The translations under genes were made by a program, and so were the position numbers. Under the pieces are notes generated by a model. That model made no database searches. It was not told the DNA's origin and worked only from the letters and a program-made list of their open reading frames with translations. From Ignavibacteriae bacterium HGW-Ignavibacteriae-1 (GTDB taxonomy: Bacteria; Bacteroidota; Ignavibacteria; Kapaibacteriales; UBA2268): a DNA stretch of 64,000 nt. The stretch lies in contig PGYU01000005.1 of the NCBI GenBank assembly GCA_002839825.1, positions 1 to 64,000 of the forward strand. Reading direction: 5' to 3'. Shown here one piece after another: positions 7,232 to 53,210 of this stretch. The number at the start of each line of letters is the position of its first letter. Positions within the stretch are counted from its first letter, which is position 1.

Positions 7232-7267
7232 ACATTTGTTTTTTGTATTTAATTTCACATCACATTA

Positions 7268-8311
7268 CTACTTGCCTTCTTCGATTTTTTCTTCTACTTC
7301 GGCTTTTTCATCGGCATCTGTTTTTTCCAATCCTTCTGTATTATCACCATCGGGTTCGTAATTTAAATTAATCATAAATGGAAAATGGTCTGAGCCAATA
7401 TCTTCAAGTCTTTTAAGTGCTAACAGCCCAAATTCTTTGGAATAGAAAATATGATCCAGCGGAAACCGAAACAAAGGCACAGAAGCGTTATAAGTATTAT
7501 AAAATCCTCTACCTTCACGTGGGTCAACGAGCCTACTATACTTCCGGAAAAGCTTTGAAGTTCCGGACCAGCCTACATCGTTCATGTCACCGGCGACAAT
7601 AGTTGGATTTCTGGTTTCCTTAATTTTTTTGCCGATAATAAGCAATTCTGTATCTCTTTCATAAGTATCGGTACCAGGCTGCGGCGGTTCCGGGTGAACT
7701 CCGTAAAAATCAATCTTGCTTCCGGATGGCAAGGTAATCTTGGTAAAAATTGATGGCACATCATCTCGTACCAAAAAATTGACTTCGCTTTCCGTCAATG
7801 GCAGTTTAGACAGCAATATCATTCCGTATGTGTTTTCAAGTGGATATTTGATAGAATACGGGTAATCTTGGTCCAGCTTACCAATTGATTCAGCCCAAGC
7901 ATTATCGGGTTCATTAATCAGCACAATATCAGGATTATGCTTTTTTACAAGTGTATGAAAACTCTCTTTGTCTTCATTTTTCATAAGCACATTTGAAACC
8001 AGAAGGGTCAAGCTGCTTCCTGCAACCGGCTTATTGCTATCCTTAGCCGAAGTTTTGCAAAGGGGAGTATAAACCACAATAAACTGAAGCTGATATACCA
8101 TTGAAACTGATAGGATTAACAATAATGGCAACTTGAATTCCCATTTGATGTCTAAGAAAACAGAAGCCAGAATTATCGCTAATAATGTTAGCGTAGCTAT
8201 CTGAACTCTCGGAAAATCAAATATTCTAATCCACCAAGCGCCCGAGTTGATCAAGGGCAGTCCTGTTGTAATTAGAACAATAAAGCATAATATTAGAATA
8301 CTTATTCTCAT
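7268..8311 (-). CDS. membrane-anchored endonuclease/exonuclease/phosphatase (EEP) family protein
   Basis: 347 residues. Three hydrophobic helices in the first ~95 residues are followed by an EEP domain with a NEPD metal-site motif, YGVHPEPP, VAGDMNDVGW and a terminal IGSDHFP. These are the metal and catalytic residues of the DNase I-like fold. Related membrane proteins act as phosphatases or phosphodiesterases with poorly known substrates. The last ~30 residues are a Glu/Lys/Asp-rich tail. No recognised promoter element sits directly ahead of it. Confidence 0.82.
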   Translation of the reverse strand: MRISILILCFIVLITTGLPLINSGAWWIRIFDFPRVQIATLTLLAIILASVFLDIKWEFKLPLLLILSVSMVYQLQFIVVYTPLCKTSAKDSNKPVAGSSLTLLVSNVLMKNEDKESFHTLVKKHNPDIVLINEPDNAWAESIGKLDQDYPYSIKYPLENTYGMILLSKLPLTESEVNFLVRDDVPSIFTKITLPSGSKIDFYGVHPEPPQPGTDTYERDTELLIIGKKIKETRNPTIVAGDMNDVGWSGTSKLFRKYSRLVDPREGRGFYNTYNASVPLFRFPLDHIFYSKEFGLLALKRLEDIGSDHFPFMINLNYEPDGDNTEGLEKTDADEKAEVEEKIEEGK

Positions 8312-8406
8312 TAATAAATCTTCATATTTAAAAACTGTTGTATCTTGTTGCTTAATTCATTTCAATTTAATGTTGATTTGTTCCACATCACGTCCCCTTG
8401 ATAACT

Positions 8407-8434
8407 ATAGCCCACGAATAAATTCATGGGCTAT
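8407..8434. repeat. 28-base palindrome
   Basis: Arms ATAGCCCA and TGGGCTAT, with GAAT/ATTC pairing inward, make a strong hairpin between the YciF-like and EEP genes. No T-run follows on the minus strand, so an intrinsic terminator is not convincing. Its outer arms resemble the hairpin at 3328-3351. Confidence 0.5.
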
Positions 8435-8468
8435 GGTAAATGTAAACTCAATTTAAGATAAGATATTC

Positions 8469-9047
8469 TTATGCTTCTATTTCTGTCGCATCTATATTAA
8501 CCGTTCTCATTGCAACTTTTGTTAGTTTTTGGTCAGCCGCTTTTTCTTCATTGAGCGTGGTTTCAAGCAGTGATTGAGCTTCTGTTAAACCTAATGTTTC
8601 AGCAAATTGGCGAAGTGTACCGTAAGAAGCAATTTCATAATGTTCTACTTTTTGTGCAGCTGAAATAATTCCTGCATCGCGCATTGGTCCTTCTTCACAA
8701 TCTTCCATTATTTCTTCTCCTTCTTTAATCAGACCTTCCATTGCATCGCATTTTTCTGCTGTTGCTTTTTTGTCAATTGACTCAAAAACTTTTTCCAGTC
8801 TGGTAATCTGGTTTTTCGTTTCTTCGAGGTGGTTTGTTAGTGCATCAACCAAAGCATCGGAAGTTGCATTTTTTATCATCTTGGGAATTGCTCTGGTTAG
8901 AGCTTTTTCAGCCCAGTAAATGTCTTTCAATTCATCTTCAAATAATTTCATTAGTTGAGATGATCTCATAGAAACGTTGTTTGATTTTTCTCTTGACTGT
9001 TTTCCGTTTGTGGAAGTGGTCGGCGAATTTGATTTTTGATTATTCAT
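8469..9047 (-). CDS. YciE/YciF-like ferritin-fold stress protein (DUF892)
   Basis: 192 residues from the ATG at 9047; a GTG nine bases upstream is possible. After a Ser/Asn-rich start the DUF892 pattern is clear: LMKLFEDELKDIYWAEKAL, LEETKNQITRLEKVFE, IISAAQKVEHYEIASYGTLR and a last helix with LNEEKAADQKL. The family has a dimetal four-helix bundle and is induced by osmotic and general stress. It probably belongs to the transcript that starts at promoter copy c. Confidence 0.88.
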   Translation of the reverse strand: MNNQKSNSPTTSTNGKQSREKSNNVSMRSSQLMKLFEDELKDIYWAEKALTRAIPKMIKNATSDALVDALTNHLEETKNQITRLEKVFESIDKKATAEKCDAMEGLIKEGEEIMEDCEEGPMRDAGIISAAQKVEHYEIASYGTLRQFAETLGLTEAQSLLETTLNEEKAADQKLTKVAMRTVNIDATEIEA

Positions 9048-9139
9048 TTTTTTCACTTTAAATTTATTTTAGAAATTATTATTTTATTGATTCAGTTAGT
9101 AATGCAACCGAAACTTTTCCAATTATAATTCCCATGTTC

Positions 9140-9376
9140 TTATTTTTTAGATACATTATTTTCCTTATGTTCTTTATTTTTCATAAGGTTTAAGCCATAG
9201 GTATAATTTGTGGAAAGAATTACATCGTTGCAATCAAAATGTTTGATGATTCCGTCTTTAACTAATGCAACGACCCAACAGGTATTTTGATGCATACCAT
9301 AATCAATGAGGAAGAGTGCTTGCCCTGTTCCCAGAGGTGTCTCTACTAATATTGATGGATCTAATTGAAGTATCAT
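9140..9376 (-). CDS. small protein of unknown function (78 aa)
   Basis: 78 residues with two predicted beta-hairpins (ALFLIDYGMHQNTCWVVALV and GIIKHFDCNDVIL) and a Lys/Asn-rich tail. Not recognised. It lies between the DUF2383 and YciF-like genes on the same strand, 33 bases after the former, so co-expression with these stress genes is likely. Position and clean spacing argue for a real gene. Confidence 0.6.
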   Translation of the reverse strand: MILQLDPSILVETPLGTGQALFLIDYGMHQNTCWVVALVKDGIIKHFDCNDVILSTNYTYGLNLMKNKEHKENNVSKK

Positions 9377-9409
9377 ATTATTGTTTAGTTAAATTTTCAA
9401 CAGAATGCA

Positions 9410-9871
9410 TTATGCATGTATTTTCAATGAATCGCGTAATGATTTTACATGGTCGTGGTCGGCTTTTAGTAATGCTTTTTGTGCGTTTATCAATTCTCGA
9501 TGGTCTGCACTTAAATATTCTCTATCATTCTCTAATACCTTTTTGTATGTATCTAATGCTTCTTCTTCTCCATCCACGCAAGAGTTGAGAATTGCTTCGC
9601 GGTCTTTGCCTGTGAGAGCTGCCTTAAAATCCATCCATACACGAAAGAATTTTCCGGAAATTTTTGTACCTTCGGCTTCTCTGCCACCCAGTCTGTTTAC
9701 TACACTTACTAGTTCACTTTTGCATTTATGACTTGTCGAAATGAATCTTGCAAACAAGGTTTTCAAATCTTGTTCATCGGTTTCTTTAGTAGCGGTGTCA
9801 TAACCTTCTATTCTATCGTTGTTGATAGTGATAAGTGAGTTTAACACGTCAATTGTTTTTTCGTTTTCCAT
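9410..9871 (-). CDS. PA2169/DUF2383-like four-helix-bundle protein
   Basis: 153 residues starting MENEKTIDVLNSLI. The pattern of four amphipathic helices, with NNDRIEGYDTA, RFISTSHKCKSELVS, GTKISGKFFRVWMDFKAAL and GEEEALDTYKKVL, matches the DUF2383 ferritin-like family often found beside YciF proteins. An in-frame start at 9925 exists, but the extra 18 residues look unlike the family. It is the first intact gene below promoter copy c, with the katE remnant in between. Confidence 0.82.
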   Translation of the reverse strand: MENEKTIDVLNSLITINNDRIEGYDTATKETDEQDLKTLFARFISTSHKCKSELVSVVNRLGGREAEGTKISGKFFRVWMDFKAALTGKDREAILNSCVDGEEEALDTYKKVLENDREYLSADHRELINAQKALLKADHDHVKSLRDSLKIHA

Positions 9872-10148
9872 TTTAATATCCTTAATTATTTTTATAAAAA
9901 TTTGAATTGTAAAGTCATTCTCCAATTTGAATCCGAGTAAATACTTAAACTTTATAGTTCATAGCTATTCACTATCGCATTCCCTCTGGAAAATTGATAT
10001 ATGTTATTTAGTCCCACTTGTCTAATCGGACAGTTTTTTTCTGCTCATTGTTATTCTTCACCAAATCATTTAAGTTATAGGCAGGTATTCTGTATAGTTA
10101 AACAAAATAATGCCGAATGTGAAGATAACATGCAATTTTAATCAAATA

Positions 10149-10256
10149 TTAAGCCGACACATTTCTGAACTCTACACGAATCCGGAAACGATGATTGGCA
10201 ATACACACGAAAAAATTTTCCGAATTGCCATTTGTAATCACTCAAACATCCTCCAT
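10149..10256 (-). pseudogene. catalase (katE) C-terminal remnant
   Basis: Translating the minus strand from 10256 gives 36 codons that align without a gap to the last 36 codons of katE (18630-20795), including the stop: MEDV-stop-VITNGNSENF then CIANHRFRIRVEFRNVSA, against MEDVGVNIDGSADKF then CIAKHRFWNREDFRKVPA. The Gly codon became TGA. Weaker nucleotide similarity continues to about 10290. It lies ~65 bases below promoter copy c, so a whole promoter-katE unit probably stood here before most of it was deleted. Confidence 0.85.
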
Positions 10257-10354
10257 AAATAGTTTTTAAATTTTATTTTCTTAAACAAATACACATCTAT
10301 TTTTTGCAATGTTAAAATAGAATTTCTAATTGTTAATTATAAATAGTTAAGCTA

Positions 10355-10418
10355 CAAAGATAAGTCCATTAACTCATTAATTTGTTACATAAGTAAATGG
10401 ATGAGTTACATTATTCAC
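10355..10418 (-). promoter_or_regulatory. three-block stress promoter element, copy c
   Basis: Minus strand: GTGAATAAT (10418-10410), ATGTAAC (10390-10384), TATCTTTG (10362-10355); spacing 28/28. It now precedes the katE C-terminal remnant and, ~480 bases on, the DUF2383/YciF genes. The rest of 9872-10499 holds no gene. Confidence 0.78.
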
Positions 10419-10499
10419 ACATTAATAAAACGTGTCTCATCCTATAAATACCTTGACAATTATTACACTTGAATAAGTGAGATACAATCATAATTCTAT

Positions 10500-43690: not shown

Positions 43691-45667
43691 TCATCTTCCT
43701 TCGACTATTTCGACAAAGACATTTCTATTATACATTCTACCTTCGGGGTATTTGTTATCGAATGTATATTGTGTTTTGCGTTCACCTAAGCCAATAGCTG
43801 TTACATTTGTTGTTGTTTTGTTGTCTTTTCTGAGCTGGTCAACAATAATTGATTTTGTTTCATCAGCTCTTTGTCTAGACAGTTTCAAATTACCATCCGG
43901 TGTTCCGATAATATCAGAGTGACCGTGAATAATAACCCTATCAATGTTTCCAATACCTTTAACAATATCGTTTCTGATTGTGGTCTCATAAGTTCTTACC
44001 GCATCTGCTTGATTATAGTCAAATATCATAAGATATCTTGACGCATTTCTCAATTCGGTATCTTTGGTTAGTTTGAAACTGACATTTTCACTTGTTATTT
44101 TTCCGGTTCTATCGGTAATGGAAACTTTTGCATTATATTTTCCATTTTCAAGAAATCTCATAAGTTCAGCCGGATTAATCCTGGCACTGCTATATGAGTA
44201 TGGACCGAAATACATTGTTCTGCCTTCGCCGGTGATAGTAATATCCCAACTTCTGAATGGAACCGAATTGTCTATCGAAAATAGCATGTCATTGTCAATC
44301 GAAGTTTCATCTCTAATTGTATAAACCAATGGTTTGTACATGTCCGAGTTGCTGAAAACAAACTTGACTCTTCTATTTTCGTCGTTAATCAATCCTGCTG
44401 ACTTTGCTTCAGTCGAATCACTACCCGAAGGAGCATACGGTGGATCTGTAATTACCGCTATTCTATCAGGATTAATATCGAAATTGTTCACCAAATAATC
44501 TTTGACTTTGTTAGCTTGTATTTCGGCTTCCTTTTCTTCAGGGTCAGAACCGCGTAAAGTCAATTGTACACTTGGATTCTTTCTCATCCTGTCGCCATAT
44601 ACATTCATTACATTGTAATATGCAACCATCAACTGATTCACATTAGTTTCTTTTTCAGTCAAATCACCTTTTTCAAAATTTGATAAGTCTGACTCGTTGA
44701 AATTTGTAGCTTCCGATTTAGTCAATGTGATATACCTTCTCGGGAAATCTAAACTACCTTTGTCAAAGAATACATATGGATGTATTGGGAAATAACCCTT
44801 TACATTCTTAGTTACGATAGTATTATCGGTAGGCATTTCAATTGCTACTTTGTTAGTAACTGTTGGAGTTGGAGATTTTGAAACCTGAGCCACGCCTTCA
44901 ACCGGGTCTCTATTTTCCATAGATAACCTTACACCAATTCTATAAGTCATGGTTGTCCACACATCGCCTACTGAATTTTGGGTAGGTTCATCAATGCTTT
45001 CGCGTTGATTTGCTATCCATGATGTTTCAAAGAATGGAGATAAATATAGGGATGAATTTTGGTCTAAATCCGAAATCCTAATATCATAAGCCAAGCCACC
45101 TTGGACACCCCAAGTTAACATTACCACATCAGGTACATCTTTTTCAGGTTGTTCAGCAGCTTCATCCTTATCGGCTTTATAGACAAAAGTACTATTTAAG
45201 TTGTATGCTAAGAAAGGACCCACATAGAAGTTTAAATTCGGAATAAGATGTTGGTCAACCCTGAACAATGGTTCAAAAGTTAGATAACTCATTTTAGTAT
45301 CAAATGAAGGAATTGGCGTTCTCGTGTCATCAATTACTAATGCATCTCTGACATCATATGATACACGGAATTGAAATCCCCACCAACTTTCGGAAAGATA
45401 CTCACCAAATAAGCCTAAGTATATACCATTACCTGTGCCATCTACATAATCAATTTCATCTTCCGGTGATTGGAAGTTAGGGTCAAGACCGTGAAGATAT
45501 TGCCAGCCCAGACTGGCAGAGTTGAATTGGTAACCGAGGTTTAACCCGTATCGCCATGCTTGTTGGCGAAATTTCATTTCTTGCGCATCTGTCGTTGACT
45601 GAAAAAACATTGCGAAGACAAATGTAAATATGAAACTGAAGACGATTTTTTGTCTAAAACTTTTCAT
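43691..45667 (-). CDS. OmpA-family outer-membrane protein (658 aa)
   Basis: Signal peptide (KIVFSFIFTFVFAMFFQSTTDA), N-terminal barrel (residues ~30-260, RYGLNLGYQFNSASLGWQYL on), a Pro-rich linker, and two OmpA-like peptidoglycan-binding segments. The first (YVFFDKGSLDFPRRY) is interrupted by a long insert. The second has VIIHGHSDIIGTPDGNLKLS then RADETKSII and ends FVEIVEGR. It anchors the outer membrane to the cell wall. Paralogous in design to 50821-52986; its 3' end is the parent of the chimeric ORF. Confidence 0.85.
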   Translation of the reverse strand: MKSFRQKIVFSFIFTFVFAMFFQSTTDAQEMKFRQQAWRYGLNLGYQFNSASLGWQYLHGLDPNFQSPEDEIDYVDGTGNGIYLGLFGEYLSESWWGFQFRVSYDVRDALVIDDTRTPIPSFDTKMSYLTFEPLFRVDQHLIPNLNFYVGPFLAYNLNSTFVYKADKDEAAEQPEKDVPDVVMLTWGVQGGLAYDIRISDLDQNSSLYLSPFFETSWIANQRESIDEPTQNSVGDVWTTMTYRIGVRLSMENRDPVEGVAQVSKSPTPTVTNKVAIEMPTDNTIVTKNVKGYFPIHPYVFFDKGSLDFPRRYITLTKSEATNFNESDLSNFEKGDLTEKETNVNQLMVAYYNVMNVYGDRMRKNPSVQLTLRGSDPEEKEAEIQANKVKDYLVNNFDINPDRIAVITDPPYAPSGSDSTEAKSAGLINDENRRVKFVFSNSDMYKPLVYTIRDETSIDNDMLFSIDNSVPFRSWDITITGEGRTMYFGPYSYSSARINPAELMRFLENGKYNAKVSITDRTGKITSENVSFKLTKDTELRNASRYLMIFDYNQADAVRTYETTIRNDIVKGIGNIDRVIIHGHSDIIGTPDGNLKLSRQRADETKSIIVDQLRKDNKTTTNVTAIGLGERKTQYTFDNKYPEGRMYNRNVFVEIVEGR

Positions 45668-46690: not shown

Positions 46691-46999
46691 TTTGATATTC
46701 CTTAATAATGTTCAAAAAATTTTCAATTCAGAATCCTTTAGACAAAAAACTTATAAAGTTCTGCTTTATGTATGTAATCGTCATTGCATTGTCCGAATTT
46801 TGTAATGCAGTACTGCATTGGGCAATGATGCACTAAGTCGTATGTCTGTTTGTATGTACTATGTTGTTCGGGATGAGGTGTTATAAGTCGTTCACTCATA
46901 CAATTTCAATTCAAAGAAAAATTTTCTTGAATCCCTACCATTTCCTTTTGCAATGATATTCGGCATATTCTATTTTCTATGTGAAACTTCTTTACACTA

Positions 47000-47063
47000 C
47001 AAAGGTAACTCCGAACATACAAGACAATGTTACATCTAAAAATCTATAATGTATAGTATTCAC
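47000..47063 (-). promoter_or_regulatory. three-block stress promoter element, copy f
   Basis: Minus strand: GTGAATACT (47063-47055), ATGTAAC (47035-47029), TACCTTTG (47007-47000); spacing 28/28. Upstream of the coiled-coil lipoprotein. Between 46691 and 47494 there is no gene, only this, copy g and a tRNA fragment. Confidence 0.75.
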
Positions 47064-47116
47064 ATATTATATGCTATTGTCCAAAATCAATTTTCAATTT
47101 GCACATACTTACATTA

Positions 47117-47180
47117 CAATGATAAGTCTAAAAGTACAAGTGAATGTTACATATACAAATGTAAAGTTTATATAATTCAC
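47117..47180 (-). promoter_or_regulatory. three-block stress promoter element, copy g
   Basis: Minus strand: GTGAATTAT (47180-47172), ATGTAAC (47152-47146), TATCATTG (47124-47117, one mismatch in the -7 box); spacing 28/28. Tandem to copy f, 117 bases apart. Confidence 0.68.
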
Positions 47181-47311
47181 AGATTTTGAATTTTTAATCA
47201 AAGAAGTAATAGGGAAGCGGTTGCAGAGGAAATTATATGCAAAAATATCAGAAAAAACATAAATTTATTTAAAATATACAAGTTGATTTGAGCCAAATTC
47301 ATATAAAAAAC

Positions 47312-47388
47312 AATCGTCCAAAAATATTGAACGATTCCTTTTTTCATCTTGTACCCGGAACAGGAGTCGAACCTGCACGAGAGTTCTC
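47312..47388 (-). repeat. duplicate of tRNA-Leu 3' end plus terminator
   Basis: Seventy-seven bases align without gaps (two differences seen) to 53087-53163: the 3' 37 bases of tRNA-Leu (T-arm, acceptor strand) and its downstream hairpin. The match stops abruptly in the variable arm; upstream bases are unrelated. It cannot form a tRNA. Such a truncated 3' copy is the usual trace of site-specific integration into a tRNA gene, or of a segmental duplication. Confidence 0.85.
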
Positions 47389-47494
47389 AAGGTTCTATAT
47401 GATTTGTTGCAAAAATATCACAATGCTCATGTAGTTTACTTTTAGTTTATATTCCTTAAATTCTATCAATTTTCGAATTTCAACGAAGAAAATT

Positions 47495-50400
47495 CTACTT
47501 TATTACAGAAAAAATTCTTGATTCAATGTATGTCGGTGTTTTTAAAACAAGAAAATATTGCCCATTCGTAAAATTTCTGATGTCAATAGTTTTAGTTTGC
47601 GATACTGAATATTCGGTAACATCAAGATGGAATTTTTCGATTATACCTCCAAGCACATCTGTGATTATAATTTCAGTGGTCCCTTTCTCACTGATATTGA
47701 AAACTATTGTAATTTTATCATTGCTTGGATTGGGTGTAATGGATTCGATTTGAATTGCGCTTGGGTTAATGAGCCTCAAACCACCTTCATCGCACAAATC
47801 TAATAACCTGAATGTACCCAAACGAATATTAATCTCGGCATTACCATTGACAGTTTGAACATTGGATAGAATTAAAGGTGTTGATTCAGCATTCCCCAAA
47901 CAAGCTATGAATTTTGGCAATGCAATTGTATTTACATTAACCGGCAGATTTTTAAGTGTAATTGAAGAAACGAATTCATCTTTGTAAAAGGCTTCCATAT
48001 CCACAGGAGCTAACAAAGTAGAGTTATAATCCAATTCAAGGTTGATGGAAGTAATTCCGGCATAAGGTAGATTAACAGTATTAGTAAGAATAATAGGTAT
48101 TTCAATTGTGTCTCCAACGTTTGCTTCTAAAGATTCCGGATACAGAAGAATCGAAGCAGTTCCACTAAAGACACCTTCACCTAATAATGTAATAATCACC
48201 GGGCTATCTTCACCTTCAAACTGAAATTCAAGCGTTCCCGAAGTTTTTCCAATGAATGAAGGAGTAAATCTCAAATCCATAAAATGTTCGGCTCCGTTAG
48301 GCACACTAAAGCTTCCGCCTCCGTTAAGAGTGACGAAATCTAAAGCATTAGGCGCTCCATGAACAGTATTGCTTATAGTGAAAGGTTTATCACCGATACA
48401 TCTAATTGTAGCCGCATTGATGGTATCTTTGAATGAATCAATTTCAACTTTCCCAAAATCAATGACTTTGTTGACGACCTCGATTTTTGTATTACTTCCA
48501 TCATCAGGCAAGACTCCTTCGCCAATCAAAGTGATTATTTCCGGACTATCTGCCCCATCAAAATGAAATTCAAGCGTACCAATGGTTTCTCCCAAAAATG
48601 AAGGTGTGAATCTTAAATCCATAAGATGCGTAGTATTATAAGGAAGACTAAAAGCGCCACCACCAGAAAGAGTTGTAAAATCTATGAAATTAGGGATATT
48701 GTGTTTTGTATCTGCTATTTCGAAAGCAATATTGCCAATGCACTTGATTGTTTCGGCATTTAATGTATCTTTATAAGTGCCAATCACAACTTTCCCAAAA
48801 TCAATAATTTTATTTTGAACTTCAATTCTTGAGAATCGAGATTTATTCAAAATAGAAATGAAACCATCAAATATTCCATTGTTCAAATTCTGAAAAGCAT
48901 TAGATGTTATTTGCAAATCTTTTCCGGCAGTCCAACCTACGCAGTAAAGTTTGTCTTTTTTGGCAACAATATCTTTTGCATCCTCTTGCAAAGTGCCACC
49001 GATATAAGTTGACCACACAGGATTTAGCTCCGTATCAAATTCCAATATAAAAGCATCTGAATTACCTCCTATCTTATCTTGAGTCGGAATCCCAAGTAAT
49101 GGGAAATCTTTACTGAAAGTTGTACCTGCGATTACGATATTGCCTGAATCATTTATAGTAATTCCTCCCCATTGAGCATATGCTACATCTAAGCCTTCAT
49201 TTCCGTTTCCTCCAAAATAAGTTGACTTGAGCAATTCTCCATTTGGATTTAATTTTGCAAGAAAAAGTGAACGATTCCCCTTTAAAGATGATTGATACGA
49301 ATCAGTAAATACCGGCATATTATTACTTGAAGTGTAACCCGTGACATAAATATTACCTTCAATATCAGTAATCAAATTATTGCATTGATCATATCCGCTG
49401 CCACCAATCAAAGTTGACCATAAGGGCTTACCGAATTTAGAATATTTAACAATGAAAATATCGTACCCATTGCCTTTCCGCACTTGTGGGGTATTGAAGA
49501 CAGGAAAAGTAGTGCTATTTGTAAAACCTGATTGAATTGCGTTTCCTTGACTATCAACGTGGAAACCTTCAGCCATATTTGTACCATTTCCACCAAACAA
49601 ACTTGAATATAATAAAACACCTTTATTACTAAATTTTGATATAAACACACTATATTCTCCGGTAAGTTCTTTTCGATAGGCATCGGAAGTCACCAGATAA
49701 TCCATGCTCGTTGTTCGACCTGAACACCAAATATTATCTTCATTGTCAATTTCGATAGTTGTGAATGAGTCATAAGATGTGCCACCCAAAAAAGTTGAAT
49801 AATCTAAGTAACCGTCAGGAGCTAATTGTCCTAACAATCCATCTGCATAACCGGTAATAGTCTTTTTATGGGAACTACCGCGCATTATTATATTCCCACT
49901 TTCGGTATCGCCTCCAACCCAAATATTCCCTTTGGAATCAATATCTATTCGATACAAGTAATCTCTATCGGAACCACCCCAATAAGTGCTCCATAATAAT
50001 TTGTGGTTTTCATCGAATTTGGAAATGAATCCATCAAGTGAACCACCTTGGAATTTAGAGTTCAAAGATTCATTTTTAATCGGAATATTGTTGCTTTCGG
50101 TAAACCCGCATATATAATAATTCTCCTCATCATCAACTGCAATGCTCATCAATCTATCTGTTTTGCTTCCACCGAAATAAGATAAATATTCTAATTTATA
50201 ATAAATTACTTCTTCCTCTTGAAATTCAAGATCATTCTTTAATTGATCGTTCTTAACTAAAATCAACTTGTTTCCGATAACATCTTTTTGAGTCATACTG
50301 TATGTATTCAAGGTGAATTTTCCACCTTCATTAGCGATTTGAATTTGATAAGTCTCTAAATTTACTTTATCCTGGTATTCAATTCTAAAAGGTTTATCAT

Positions 50401-50800
50401 TTTTCTTTTGGGCATAATGAATTCCCGTACTATTCGTAAATACGAATATAACCCCTTCAAAATCAACAATCAAGCTATCAATTAGTTTTACGTTTTCAAT
50501 TTCATATAAATGATTGTAGATATTTACATAAGATGTAGAATTTACTACTCTAATTATAGGATTACTTCCATCTTTTATAACAAATGCTTCATTCCACTGT
50601 TTTAATGAATCTTGAACAGTATAATTATAAAATTTTAGTCCATCAGATTCAATTAAGACGGTAAAAATTGAATTTCGGAAAACATAACTATCGCCATTGT
50701 CTAATGAAAATATTTCAGCTTGAGATGCAAAAGAAGTATTATATGAAATAATCATATATGTAATGACGATAACCACATATTTTACAATTGAATTTTTCAT
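47495..50800 (-). CDS. giant SBBP-repeat surface protein with T9SS sorting domain
   Basis: 1101 residues. Signal peptide, then ~10 SBBP propeller repeats (LSYFGGSKTDRLMSIAVD, STYWGGSDRDYLYRIDID, STLIGGSGYDQCNNLITD), two choice-of-anchor-D Ig-like domains (IIDFGKVVIGTYKDTLNA and VIDFGKVEIDSFKDTINA), a cohesin-like domain (ASILLYPESLEANVGDTIEI), and a type A T9SS domain (ITPNPSNDKITIVFN to YFLVLK). Secreted and probably cell-surface attached; adhesion is plausible. It lies 20 bases after the OmpA gene and between the tRNA and its partial copy. Confidence 0.88.
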   Translation of the reverse strand: MKNSIVKYVVIVITYMIISYNTSFASQAEIFSLDNGDSYVFRNSIFTVLIESDGLKFYNYTVQDSLKQWNEAFVIKDGSNPIIRVVNSTSYVNIYNHLYEIENVKLIDSLIVDFEGVIFVFTNSTGIHYAQKKNDKPFRIEYQDKVNLETYQIQIANEGGKFTLNTYSMTQKDVIGNKLILVKNDQLKNDLEFQEEEVIYYKLEYLSYFGGSKTDRLMSIAVDDEENYYICGFTESNNIPIKNESLNSKFQGGSLDGFISKFDENHKLLWSTYWGGSDRDYLYRIDIDSKGNIWVGGDTESGNIIMRGSSHKKTITGYADGLLGQLAPDGYLDYSTFLGGTSYDSFTTIEIDNEDNIWCSGRTTSMDYLVTSDAYRKELTGEYSVFISKFSNKGVLLYSSLFGGNGTNMAEGFHVDSQGNAIQSGFTNSTTFPVFNTPQVRKGNGYDIFIVKYSKFGKPLWSTLIGGSGYDQCNNLITDIEGNIYVTGYTSSNNMPVFTDSYQSSLKGNRSLFLAKLNPNGELLKSTYFGGNGNEGLDVAYAQWGGITINDSGNIVIAGTTFSKDFPLLGIPTQDKIGGNSDAFILEFDTELNPVWSTYIGGTLQEDAKDIVAKKDKLYCVGWTAGKDLQITSNAFQNLNNGIFDGFISILNKSRFSRIEVQNKIIDFGKVVIGTYKDTLNAETIKCIGNIAFEIADTKHNIPNFIDFTTLSGGGAFSLPYNTTHLMDLRFTPSFLGETIGTLEFHFDGADSPEIITLIGEGVLPDDGSNTKIEVVNKVIDFGKVEIDSFKDTINAATIRCIGDKPFTISNTVHGAPNALDFVTLNGGGSFSVPNGAEHFMDLRFTPSFIGKTSGTLEFQFEGEDSPVIITLLGEGVFSGTASILLYPESLEANVGDTIEIPIILTNTVNLPYAGITSINLELDYNSTLLAPVDMEAFYKDEFVSSITLKNLPVNVNTIALPKFIACLGNAESTPLILSNVQTVNGNAEINIRLGTFRLLDLCDEGGLRLINPSAIQIESITPNPSNDKITIVFNISEKGTTEIIITDVLGGIIEKFHLDVTEYSVSQTKTIDIRNFTNGQYFLVLKTPTYIESRIFSVIK

Positions 50801-50820
50801 TATAATTTCTCCCCTATAAA

Positions 50821-52986
50821 TTATTTTACTTTCGTTTTTAATTTGATTTCTACAGTTCTGCTGTAAAATCTACCCTCTGGCACATCATTATCATAAAGTA
50901 AGATTGTTTCGCCTAGGCCTTCTGTCAAAGCTTCAGGTCTTTCGATTAAAGATTTAGTTTGATTTGCTCTTTTTCCGGAGAGAATTTTATTATATTCATC
51001 TTCACCAAGCCGGTCTGTATATCCACGGATTTCTACTTCAGATTGCTGACGCATTCTCGATTTTACAAATTCAATAATCTTTAAGTTTTCTTTTGAAATT
51101 TTGTAATCATCAAAATCAAACAATATCAAATTATACACTTCTATCTCATAATCATCAATCGTAAGTTCTCGTTTTTCTCTTATTGTAGTAATATCAACAG
51201 GAATGTCAAATATTGGTGTCAAGCAATGATTTCCCTTCTTATCGCTCACGGATAAACGGAAAAAAATCGGCGCATCTGACTTTGGCATGAATTGCTGATG
51301 TTTATTAATCTCTATATCATAAAATCTTGGTACAGCTTGATTGCTATGTACTTTAATATTGTGCCTTTCTTGATTAGATATATGACTGACATTCAAATTC
51401 CACTCTAAGACTCCGGCAGTAGAGTTTGCTTCCATCTTAAATCTTGCGATAGGAATATTTGAGGTTCTGACTATGTTTTGTAAGAATATTGGTTCGATAA
51501 TGCTGTAATCATCCGAATGAATTTCAACCCGCCGATTTTCAGCCATTTTGTCAAAATCATCTGCAGGTAAAGAAGCCTTTTCCGGCAATGTACGTGTCGT
51601 AATTTGTATTCTATATTCATCAATCAACCATGTTTTAGTAAAATAATCCTTGATAGCTACAGCTCTTTCATATGAGAGTGTTTTGTTGCCTTTTTCAAGT
51701 CCCTGATCTGAATTACAGCCAACTAATGTGATTTTGGCAAAAGGATTAAGATGCATTCTTTTACCGACAATATTCAAGACATTATAGTACAAATCTAAAG
51801 TTGAATTGTAAAACAGACTGTCAGCGCTAAAATAGCGTACTTCATGATTCGCTAATCGGACATACTTCTCTGGAAGTTCTGATGAGTTATCATCAAAGAA
51901 AATATAATTCAAAAGTGGTGAAAGTTTTCTGGTGGTAAATTCTTCGATAATAAACTTAGGATTCTCTATCTCGTTTCCGGAACTGTCAACACCTACAGCT
52001 TTTACATTGCAACTAAGTGTATGAATGATTGTCACTTTGCTTGTATCTGTCCTTGTTATCGAAGTTCTGGTTAGTTTTACATTTTTTTGTTCAATTATAT
52101 CCGTAGAGTAAGTTTCAATTCCTTTCACAATAATGTCTCTATCTATCAAATCCGTTTCAATTTGGACTGTATCAATAAAATATAGTTCTTCAAATTTTTC
52201 AATTATTTTTACTGTGTTGTCTGGAGTGTATTTCAATGATAAACCTATTCTAACAGCACTCAAATTCCATTTGCTCACCAAATCATCATCAACGATATTG
52301 TTCAAACTGTATGAATAGAAGATTTCAGGTTCGGCATATAAGGTGCCATTTTTATTCATCGGTACTTTATATGAAAATCCTATCATGGGTGAAAATAATA
52401 CAGGCACAGCTTTTTCAAGTTCTCCTGAAAATTCATTTCTAACACGAGTTTTTGTATCAACACCATTTGAATCAATGAACGTTCCAAAACCTTTTGGAGA
52501 ACTTATTTCTTCCTTTTGAGAATATGATTTGTCAATCAAATACCCGATGTGAAATCCAAGATTAATTGAAAAATTCTTTAATGGTTTGTACTTGATTAAA
52601 GGTATCAAACCGATTGCATTCAATTTTGTATCGAAAGTATGTTCAATCATTCCTTCAACAGCTTTATTGTTTACTGAGAGCATGATTGGTTCATCTCTTG
52701 TTAATTTGCCACTAAAATCTAAATAGGATAATCTAAACTCTGCGCTCAAAACTTTATTGATAGGATGCTCATATAAAATTCCTATTGCCCATCCTTGCCC
52801 AAAACCGTTACGATAACCTGGTGAACAACCGGGACAATCATAAATACGTTTAAAATCTGCGTGATGAAAATTTAAAGTGTAATCTGCAAATAGACCATAA
52901 CCTTGCCTTAAGCTGTCTGCTCTATTTTGAGCTAGAAGAACTTGAGATAATAATAAAAATGTTATGATTAAAAGTTTAAACATCAT
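50821..52986 (-). CDS. OmpA-family outer-membrane protein (721 aa)
   Basis: Signal KLLIITFLLLSQVLLAQ; an N-terminal barrel with a CPGCSPGYRNG loop in which two Cys could form a disulfide; then split OmpA-like segments: YIFFDDNSSELPEKYVRL, ITLVGCNSDQGLEKGNKTLS and, near the end, LILFDFDDYKISKENLKIIE, VEIRGYTDRLGEDEYN and YSRTVEIKLKTK. Same design as 43691-45667. Co-directional with the SBBP protein, so they may form an envelope pair. Confidence 0.85.
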   Translation of the reverse strand: MMFKLLIITFLLLSQVLLAQNRADSLRQGYGLFADYTLNFHHADFKRIYDCPGCSPGYRNGFGQGWAIGILYEHPINKVLSAEFRLSYLDFSGKLTRDEPIMLSVNNKAVEGMIEHTFDTKLNAIGLIPLIKYKPLKNFSINLGFHIGYLIDKSYSQKEEISSPKGFGTFIDSNGVDTKTRVRNEFSGELEKAVPVLFSPMIGFSYKVPMNKNGTLYAEPEIFYSYSLNNIVDDDLVSKWNLSAVRIGLSLKYTPDNTVKIIEKFEELYFIDTVQIETDLIDRDIIVKGIETYSTDIIEQKNVKLTRTSITRTDTSKVTIIHTLSCNVKAVGVDSSGNEIENPKFIIEEFTTRKLSPLLNYIFFDDNSSELPEKYVRLANHEVRYFSADSLFYNSTLDLYYNVLNIVGKRMHLNPFAKITLVGCNSDQGLEKGNKTLSYERAVAIKDYFTKTWLIDEYRIQITTRTLPEKASLPADDFDKMAENRRVEIHSDDYSIIEPIFLQNIVRTSNIPIARFKMEANSTAGVLEWNLNVSHISNQERHNIKVHSNQAVPRFYDIEINKHQQFMPKSDAPIFFRLSVSDKKGNHCLTPIFDIPVDITTIREKRELTIDDYEIEVYNLILFDFDDYKISKENLKIIEFVKSRMRQQSEVEIRGYTDRLGEDEYNKILSGKRANQTKSLIERPEALTEGLGETILLYDNDVPEGRFYSRTVEIKLKTKVK

Positions 52987-53078
52987 ATTAGCAATATTAT
53001 AATCTTATGTAATCAGTCTCTTCTGATAAATTTGTTCCACTTACCATCCACAATTTAAGTAATTTGCACCACCTAACC

Positions 53079-53112
53079 AAAAAAAAAATCGTCCAAAAAT
53101 TTTGGACGATTC
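53079..53112 (-). terminator. intrinsic terminator of tRNA-Leu
   Basis: On the minus strand, AATCGTCCAAAATTTTTGGA pairs within itself and is followed by CGATT and a run of T. A textbook Rho-independent terminator 15 bases after the tRNA end. A mutated copy is part of the 47312-47388 duplicate. Confidence 0.85.
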
Positions 53113-53126
53113 CTTTTTTCATCTTG

Positions 53127-53210
53127 TACCCGGAACAGGAGTCGAACCTGCACGAGAGTTCTCTCACTACACCCTGAATGTAGCGCGTCTGCCAATTCCG
53201 CCATCCGGGC
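53127..53210 (-). tRNA. tRNA-Leu (anticodon CAG)
   Basis: 84 bases. Acceptor GCCCGGA pairs with TCCGGGT (first pair G-U), discriminator A. D-arm GGCGGAATTGGCAGACGC; anticodon stem CTACA/TGTAG with loop TTCAGGG, giving CAG; long class-II variable arm; T-arm GCAGGTTCGACTCCTG. CCA is not encoded. Reads CUG codons. Confidence 0.95.

Follow-up and report, generated by a model that had tools for sequence, protein, structure and literature searches.

In the 64,000-nt window analyzed here (contig PGYU01000005.1 of a draft genome of 3.2 Mb in 43 contigs), a segment with two surface-protein genes lies between an intact tRNA-Leu(CAG) gene and a displaced 3' stub of the same gene. Judged by sequence alignment, the 5.69 kb and one repeat unit by which this locus exceeds that of its relatives are the signature of a site-specific insertion at the tRNA 3' end. 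We consider it very likely that an integrase mediated this insertion at the T-loop side of tRNA-Leu(CAG) and that the inserted element was small and had lost, or never had, an integrase of its own.

A repeated tRNA-Leu(CAG) 3' end and terminator bound the segment

The sole tRNA that ARAGORN detected in the window was tRNA-Leu(CAG), and a repeat search identified an ungapped direct repeat of 84 nt, the two copies of which are identical at 81 positions (96%) and spaced 5,775 bp apart. The features at the two ends are listed below.

53126-53210, minus strand: intact tRNA-Leu(CAG) (ARAGORN); tRNA-Leu is single-copy in both relatives with an empty site
53080-53163, minus strand: repeat copy 1 (attL), consisting of the 3' 38 nt of tRNA-Leu and a Rho-independent terminator, stem 53087-53111 (repeat search, folding, terminator scan)
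47305-47388, minus strand: repeat copy 2 (attR), consisting of the tRNA-Leu 3' stub (47351-47388) and a terminator, stem 47312-47336 (repeat search, folding, flank alignment, terminator scan)
47389-53079: inserted segment between the repeats, missing from both other species of the genus

Each repeat copy comprises positions 48-85 of tRNA-Leu(CAG) and 46 nt downstream with a hairpin terminator. The 38 nt of the tRNA part are without any difference, while the three mismatches (47311, 47326 and 47330) all fall within the terminator part. Both copies fold as terminators, with -21.6 kcal/mol (z -6.3) on the tRNA side and -15.7 kcal/mol (z -5.0) on the stub side, and a terminator scan placed one hairpin in each. 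Since both copies are intergenic, the tRNA fragment is not inside a conserved coding domain. A search of the whole genome with a 101-nt query returned only these two direct copies as well as a third, weak match, which was the terminator palindrome on the other strand. The repeat is therefore real and far beyond chance. The first-pass annotation had reported that the 3' end of tRNA-Leu(CAG) and its terminator recur 5.8 kb away with a sharp edge in the variable arm, and both the recurrence and the edge (tRNA position 48) were confirmed; the 77 nt with two changes that it described were correct and slightly short of the full 84 nt with three changes, and the stub it put at 37 nt measures 38 nt. 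Beside the stub, an intergenic direct repeat of 77 nt (75%; 46992-47068 and 47109-47185) was also observed, and the two sister species contain similar sequence as well.

Both other species of the genus carry an empty site

Two relatives from the genus were compared, one with an alaS protein 97% and the other with one 94% identical to that of the window genome; they are here called G001 and G002. At the G002 site, the counterpart of window positions 59909-53077 (6.8 kb, 93%) directly abuts that of 47388-43422 (84%) with a single tRNA-Leu between them, and at the G001 site 57994-53114 is directly joined to 47388-46235, again around a single tRNA-Leu. Each empty site contains one tRNA-Leu and one terminator, and the window flanks, when fused at the repeat, align end to end with both sites. 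The excess of the window over either relative is exactly one repeat unit and 5.69 kb, or 5,775 bp in all. As a check on the earlier reading of the repeats as an integration footprint, it had been proposed to look for an empty site in which 47.3 and 53.2 kb are joined; such a site is present in both species and supports that reading.

The insert carries an OmpA-family gene and an SBBP gene

The content of the insert is exactly two genes, both intact and co-directional, which are given here together with the neighboring OmpA gene outside the insert.

50821-52986, minus strand: OmpA-family outer-membrane protein, 721 aa, with a signal peptide, a predicted N-terminal beta-barrel and a C-terminal OmpA domain (Pfam PF00691; AlphaFold2; PDB matches)
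47495-50800, minus strand: SBBP beta-propeller-repeat protein, 1,101 aa, with a T9SS type A C-terminal sorting domain, 20 bp downstream of ompA (PF06739, PF18962, TIGR04183)
43691-45667, minus strand: native OmpA/beta-barrel gene, outside the insert and not part of the element (orthologue 88% identical in G002)

Only 93 bp separate repeat and gene at the ompA end, and 106 bp at the SBBP end. The gene content agrees with the earlier description of an enclosed SBBP/T9SS gene and OmpA gene without an integrase, except that an SBBP protein of 1,101 aa is long and not giant. The AlphaFold2 model of the 721-aa protein (pLDDT 85) had OmpA-type matches in the PDB. With a GC3 of 0.26, both insert genes were the lowest among the 16 window genes compared (others 0.29-0.40).

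The closest protein to the inner OmpA within the order is 43% identical, and its closest paralogue in the same genome (40%) is encoded on another contig, beside SBBP genes. No relative was confirmed when the inner OmpA protein was searched against genome contigs, and plasmid and phage records yielded only short OmpA-domain matches. Neither a second copy of the segment nor a member with an integrase was found.

By analogy with T9SS cargo encoded beside outer-membrane partners (PMC9143113), the ompA-SBBP pair probably displays a surface-binding protein. In the pairs described there, type B CTD cargo is encoded beside PorP-like anchors. As in those pairs, the gene for an exported surface protein adjoins an outer-membrane beta-barrel gene, whereas the insert has a type A sorting domain (PF18962/TIGR04183) and a partner that is OmpA-like, not PorP/SprF.

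Integrases in the genus and at tRNA-Leu(CAG) in the wider family

Within the segment, the search for an integrase or its remnant returned nothing credible (best E 0.23). The draft genome contains two PF00589 matches, which were read as XerC and XerD because each of the three species of the genus has them; only these XerC/XerD-like recombinases were found genome-wide in the draft assembly.

The two sister species each carry an integrase module, related at 81% protein identity and, over 2.87 kb, at 72% DNA identity. These modules abut tRNA-Glu and tRNA-Met, running through the terminator into the tRNA 3' end. They form one family of integrase elements; one sister species has its copy beside tRNA-Met, the other beside tRNA-Glu, and in each the terminator separates the integrase gene from the tRNA 3' end.

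G002:C3 (L102), 7617-10450: integrase-element locus
G001:C34 (L103), 7257-10095: integrase-element locus

In the same family as the window genome, Bacteroidetes bacterium FW215_bin.12 (SCSM01; G023) carries a tRNA-Leu(CAG) stub and terminator repeat of 116 nt (93%), with a tyrosine integrase (PF00589 and PF13102) 228 bp from the stub and the intact tRNA-Leu on a different contig. The element there and the segment in the window have the target tRNA-Leu(CAG) in common, and in both the duplicated piece consists of the tRNA 3' part and the terminator; the G023 element differs in carrying an integrase, and the OmpA/SBBP pair was not detected there in the stretches read. The earlier suggestion to look for strains with an integrase between the repeats was borne out in part: an integrase lies near a stub at the same tRNA gene, though in another genus instead of a strain of the window species. 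G023 (C3, L288, 8983-9222) also has a second tRNA-Leu 3' fragment, in inverted orientation, at a distance of about 0.9 kb from the intact tRNA-Leu; some 170 bp in front of it resemble the island end beside the stub of G067.

The latter genome, also of the same family, has an identical 55-nt tRNA-Leu stub 17.9 kb from its tRNA-Leu. No integrase was identified in the intervening 17.9 kb (C32; L285 7865-20000, L286 1-5756), which encode two T9SS cargo proteins and two TPR-CHAT proteins as well as an M48 peptidase, a RhuM/Fic protein and a sigma factor. The genes right after the G067 tRNA-Leu are common to G069, so this stub was rejected as a simple island end, its history being murkier than that of G023. 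In G023 and G067 the first repeated base lies in the anticodon loop (tRNA position 33), in the window it lies in the variable arm (position 48), which places the former two in the anticodon class and the window in the T-stem-region class (PMC4383910), and the insertions were probably made by different integrases. A search of viral contigs with the 32-nt tRNA-Leu 3' core gave no match.

Proposed mechanism and alternatives

Under the integrase-mediated insertion that we favor, a small circular element would have carried an attP with a copy of the tRNA-Leu(CAG) 3' end and terminator and would have recombined with the host tRNA-Leu gene on its T-loop/acceptor side. The host 3' end and terminator would have been displaced by 5,775 bp as the stub, and the element-borne copy would have restored a whole tRNA with its terminator. 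Accordingly assigned, the terminator at repeat copy 2 would be the original chromosomal one, and the tRNA-Leu(CAG) 3' part from the crossover onward would be supplied by the element (attL side). The element would have brought a two-gene surface operon, an OmpA-type barrel and a T9SS-exported SBBP protein with a presumed surface-binding role, and the displaced host terminator, lying directly behind this operon, probably ends its transcript. Direct observation covers the repeats, the gene content without an integrase and, by comparison with two empty sites, the exact bounds of the insertion; the catalyst was presumably a tyrosine integrase that acted in trans or has since been lost. The Islander-like layout of the repeats, the low GC3 of the insert genes, the targeting of tRNA-Leu(CAG) elsewhere in the family and the integrase elements at tRNA 3' ends of the sister species speak for this mechanism; that the segment has no integrase and the genome only XerC/XerD-like recombinases speaks against it.

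The insertion would have taken place after the split from the nearest relative. The repeat copies differ at three of 84 positions; for an insertion predating the G002 split, with the displaced stub free of constraint, 7 (intergenic rate, P 0.06) to 16 (alaS four-fold sites, P 2e-5) differences would be expected. Barring gene conversion, this makes acquisition by the window lineage a better explanation than two losses. The terminator parts on the tRNA and stub sides are identical at 43 of 46 positions while the G001 terminator is quite different, which suggests that the previous host of the element was probably a close relative.

It is unlikely that the common ancestor of the genus already had the island and that G001 and G002 each lost it, by excision or deletion, through recombination between the repeats. 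Precise loss would give identical empty sites, but two independent losses are required, and the repeats are too alike for an insertion that predated the G002 split unless they were homogenized by gene conversion. Campbell-type homologous (RecA) integration of a circle that carried the tRNA-Leu 3' end and terminator by chance is decidedly unlikely. The identity between the copies extends 46 nt beyond the tRNA, which is more than an integrase needs and speaks against integrase insertion, and no integrase is present; however, 84 bp is short for RecA, and the edge inside the tRNA, the 3'-fragment layout and the integrase-linked, terminator-containing repeats at the same tRNA are typical of tyrosine integrases. 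An assembly chimera caused by the 84-nt repeat, which in a draft genome of this kind is short enough for mistaken bridging, is very improbable, since three positions distinguish the repeat copies, the insert shares the AT-richness of the host, members of its protein family occur across the host family and synteny with G002 holds to either side of it on the contig. Finally, the segmental duplication and subsequent divergence of a unit of ompA and the tRNA 3' end, which the first-pass annotation had offered as its alternative given a direct repeat with an OmpA-family gene near each end, is hardly credible and was refuted by the empty sites of both sister species, where the outer OmpA orthologue adjoins the G002 tRNA-Leu and no inner OmpA or SBBP orthologue was found at this site, and by the divergence of the two OmpA proteins (24% identity over 396 residues, compared with 96% between the repeats), which leaves an insertion bounded by an intact tRNA and a 3' stub.

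Other surface-protein genes near tRNAs

A further reading, which we regard as rather unlikely, is that the segment is a naturally integrase-less OmpA and T9SS cassette that moves between Kapabacteria tRNA sites with integrases supplied in trans, the att repeat doubling as operon terminator. Four OmpA-family loci were located within 200 bp of a tRNA, as opposed to 0.25 expected from density. This enrichment vanished with gene-edge controls (4/84 versus 12/382 and 15/569 control ORFs, P 0.32 and 0.22), and a recurrent class of tRNA-targeted OmpA/T9SS adhesin cassettes was therefore rejected as statistically unsupported. No tRNA stubs were found beside the tRNA-near OmpA-family loci of G018, G042, G057 and G058; the contigs of G018 and G059 end too early to show one. 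The G057 locus (C1, L109, CP058732; 9024-16380) contains tRNA-Glu, OmpA, a 1,602-aa VWA/WD40 protein and then the gene that directly follows tRNA-Glu in G010, and this insert loosely fits as a second case for the trans-mobilized cassette. The tRNA-Glu site is variable, G059 and G058 carrying other inserts there, and has no detectable stub.

In two further loci (G000:C40, L094 5555-8290; G002:C8, L036 3752-6499), the distance from the end of an SBBP/T9SS gene to tRNA-Ser(cga) is 78 bp, and no tRNA-Ser repeat was present in the stretches read. tRNA-Ser(cga) directly precedes tRNA-Leu(CAG) in several other genera.

Comparison with known tRNA islands and significance

The Islander rules for tDNA islands call for a tDNA and a downstream 3' fragment in the same orientation, 2-200 kb apart, with an integrase required as a filter, and the islands so defined peak in size at 13.6 and 39.9 kb (PMC4383910). 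The segment has the whole tDNA at one end and a terminal piece of it at the other, the 3' fragment lies downstream at 5,775 bp with both on the minus strand, and the uninterrupted attB is seen in G001 and G002; its repeat edge belongs to the T-stem-region (J) class. It is thus like the Islander class (PMC4383910) in layout and empty site and unlike it in being small at 5.8 kb and in having no tyrosine integrase between its ends, so that among these rules it departs from the integrase filter alone. Tycheposons, cargo-carrying elements that target tRNAs, have a listed size of 4-200 kb and a tyrosine recombinase (as described in PMC10872708). The segment resembles them by description as a small cargo element inserted at a tRNA gene, but has no tyrosine recombinase beside the tRNA.

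With an insertion mechanism that is otherwise standard, the segment is an ordinary kind of genomic island, and database methods that require an integrase inside the island would reject it. It is an example from Kapabacteria of a tRNA island with sharp boundaries and no integrase, and it shows that a tRNA site can acquire long surface-protein genes together with their outer-membrane partner in one piece.
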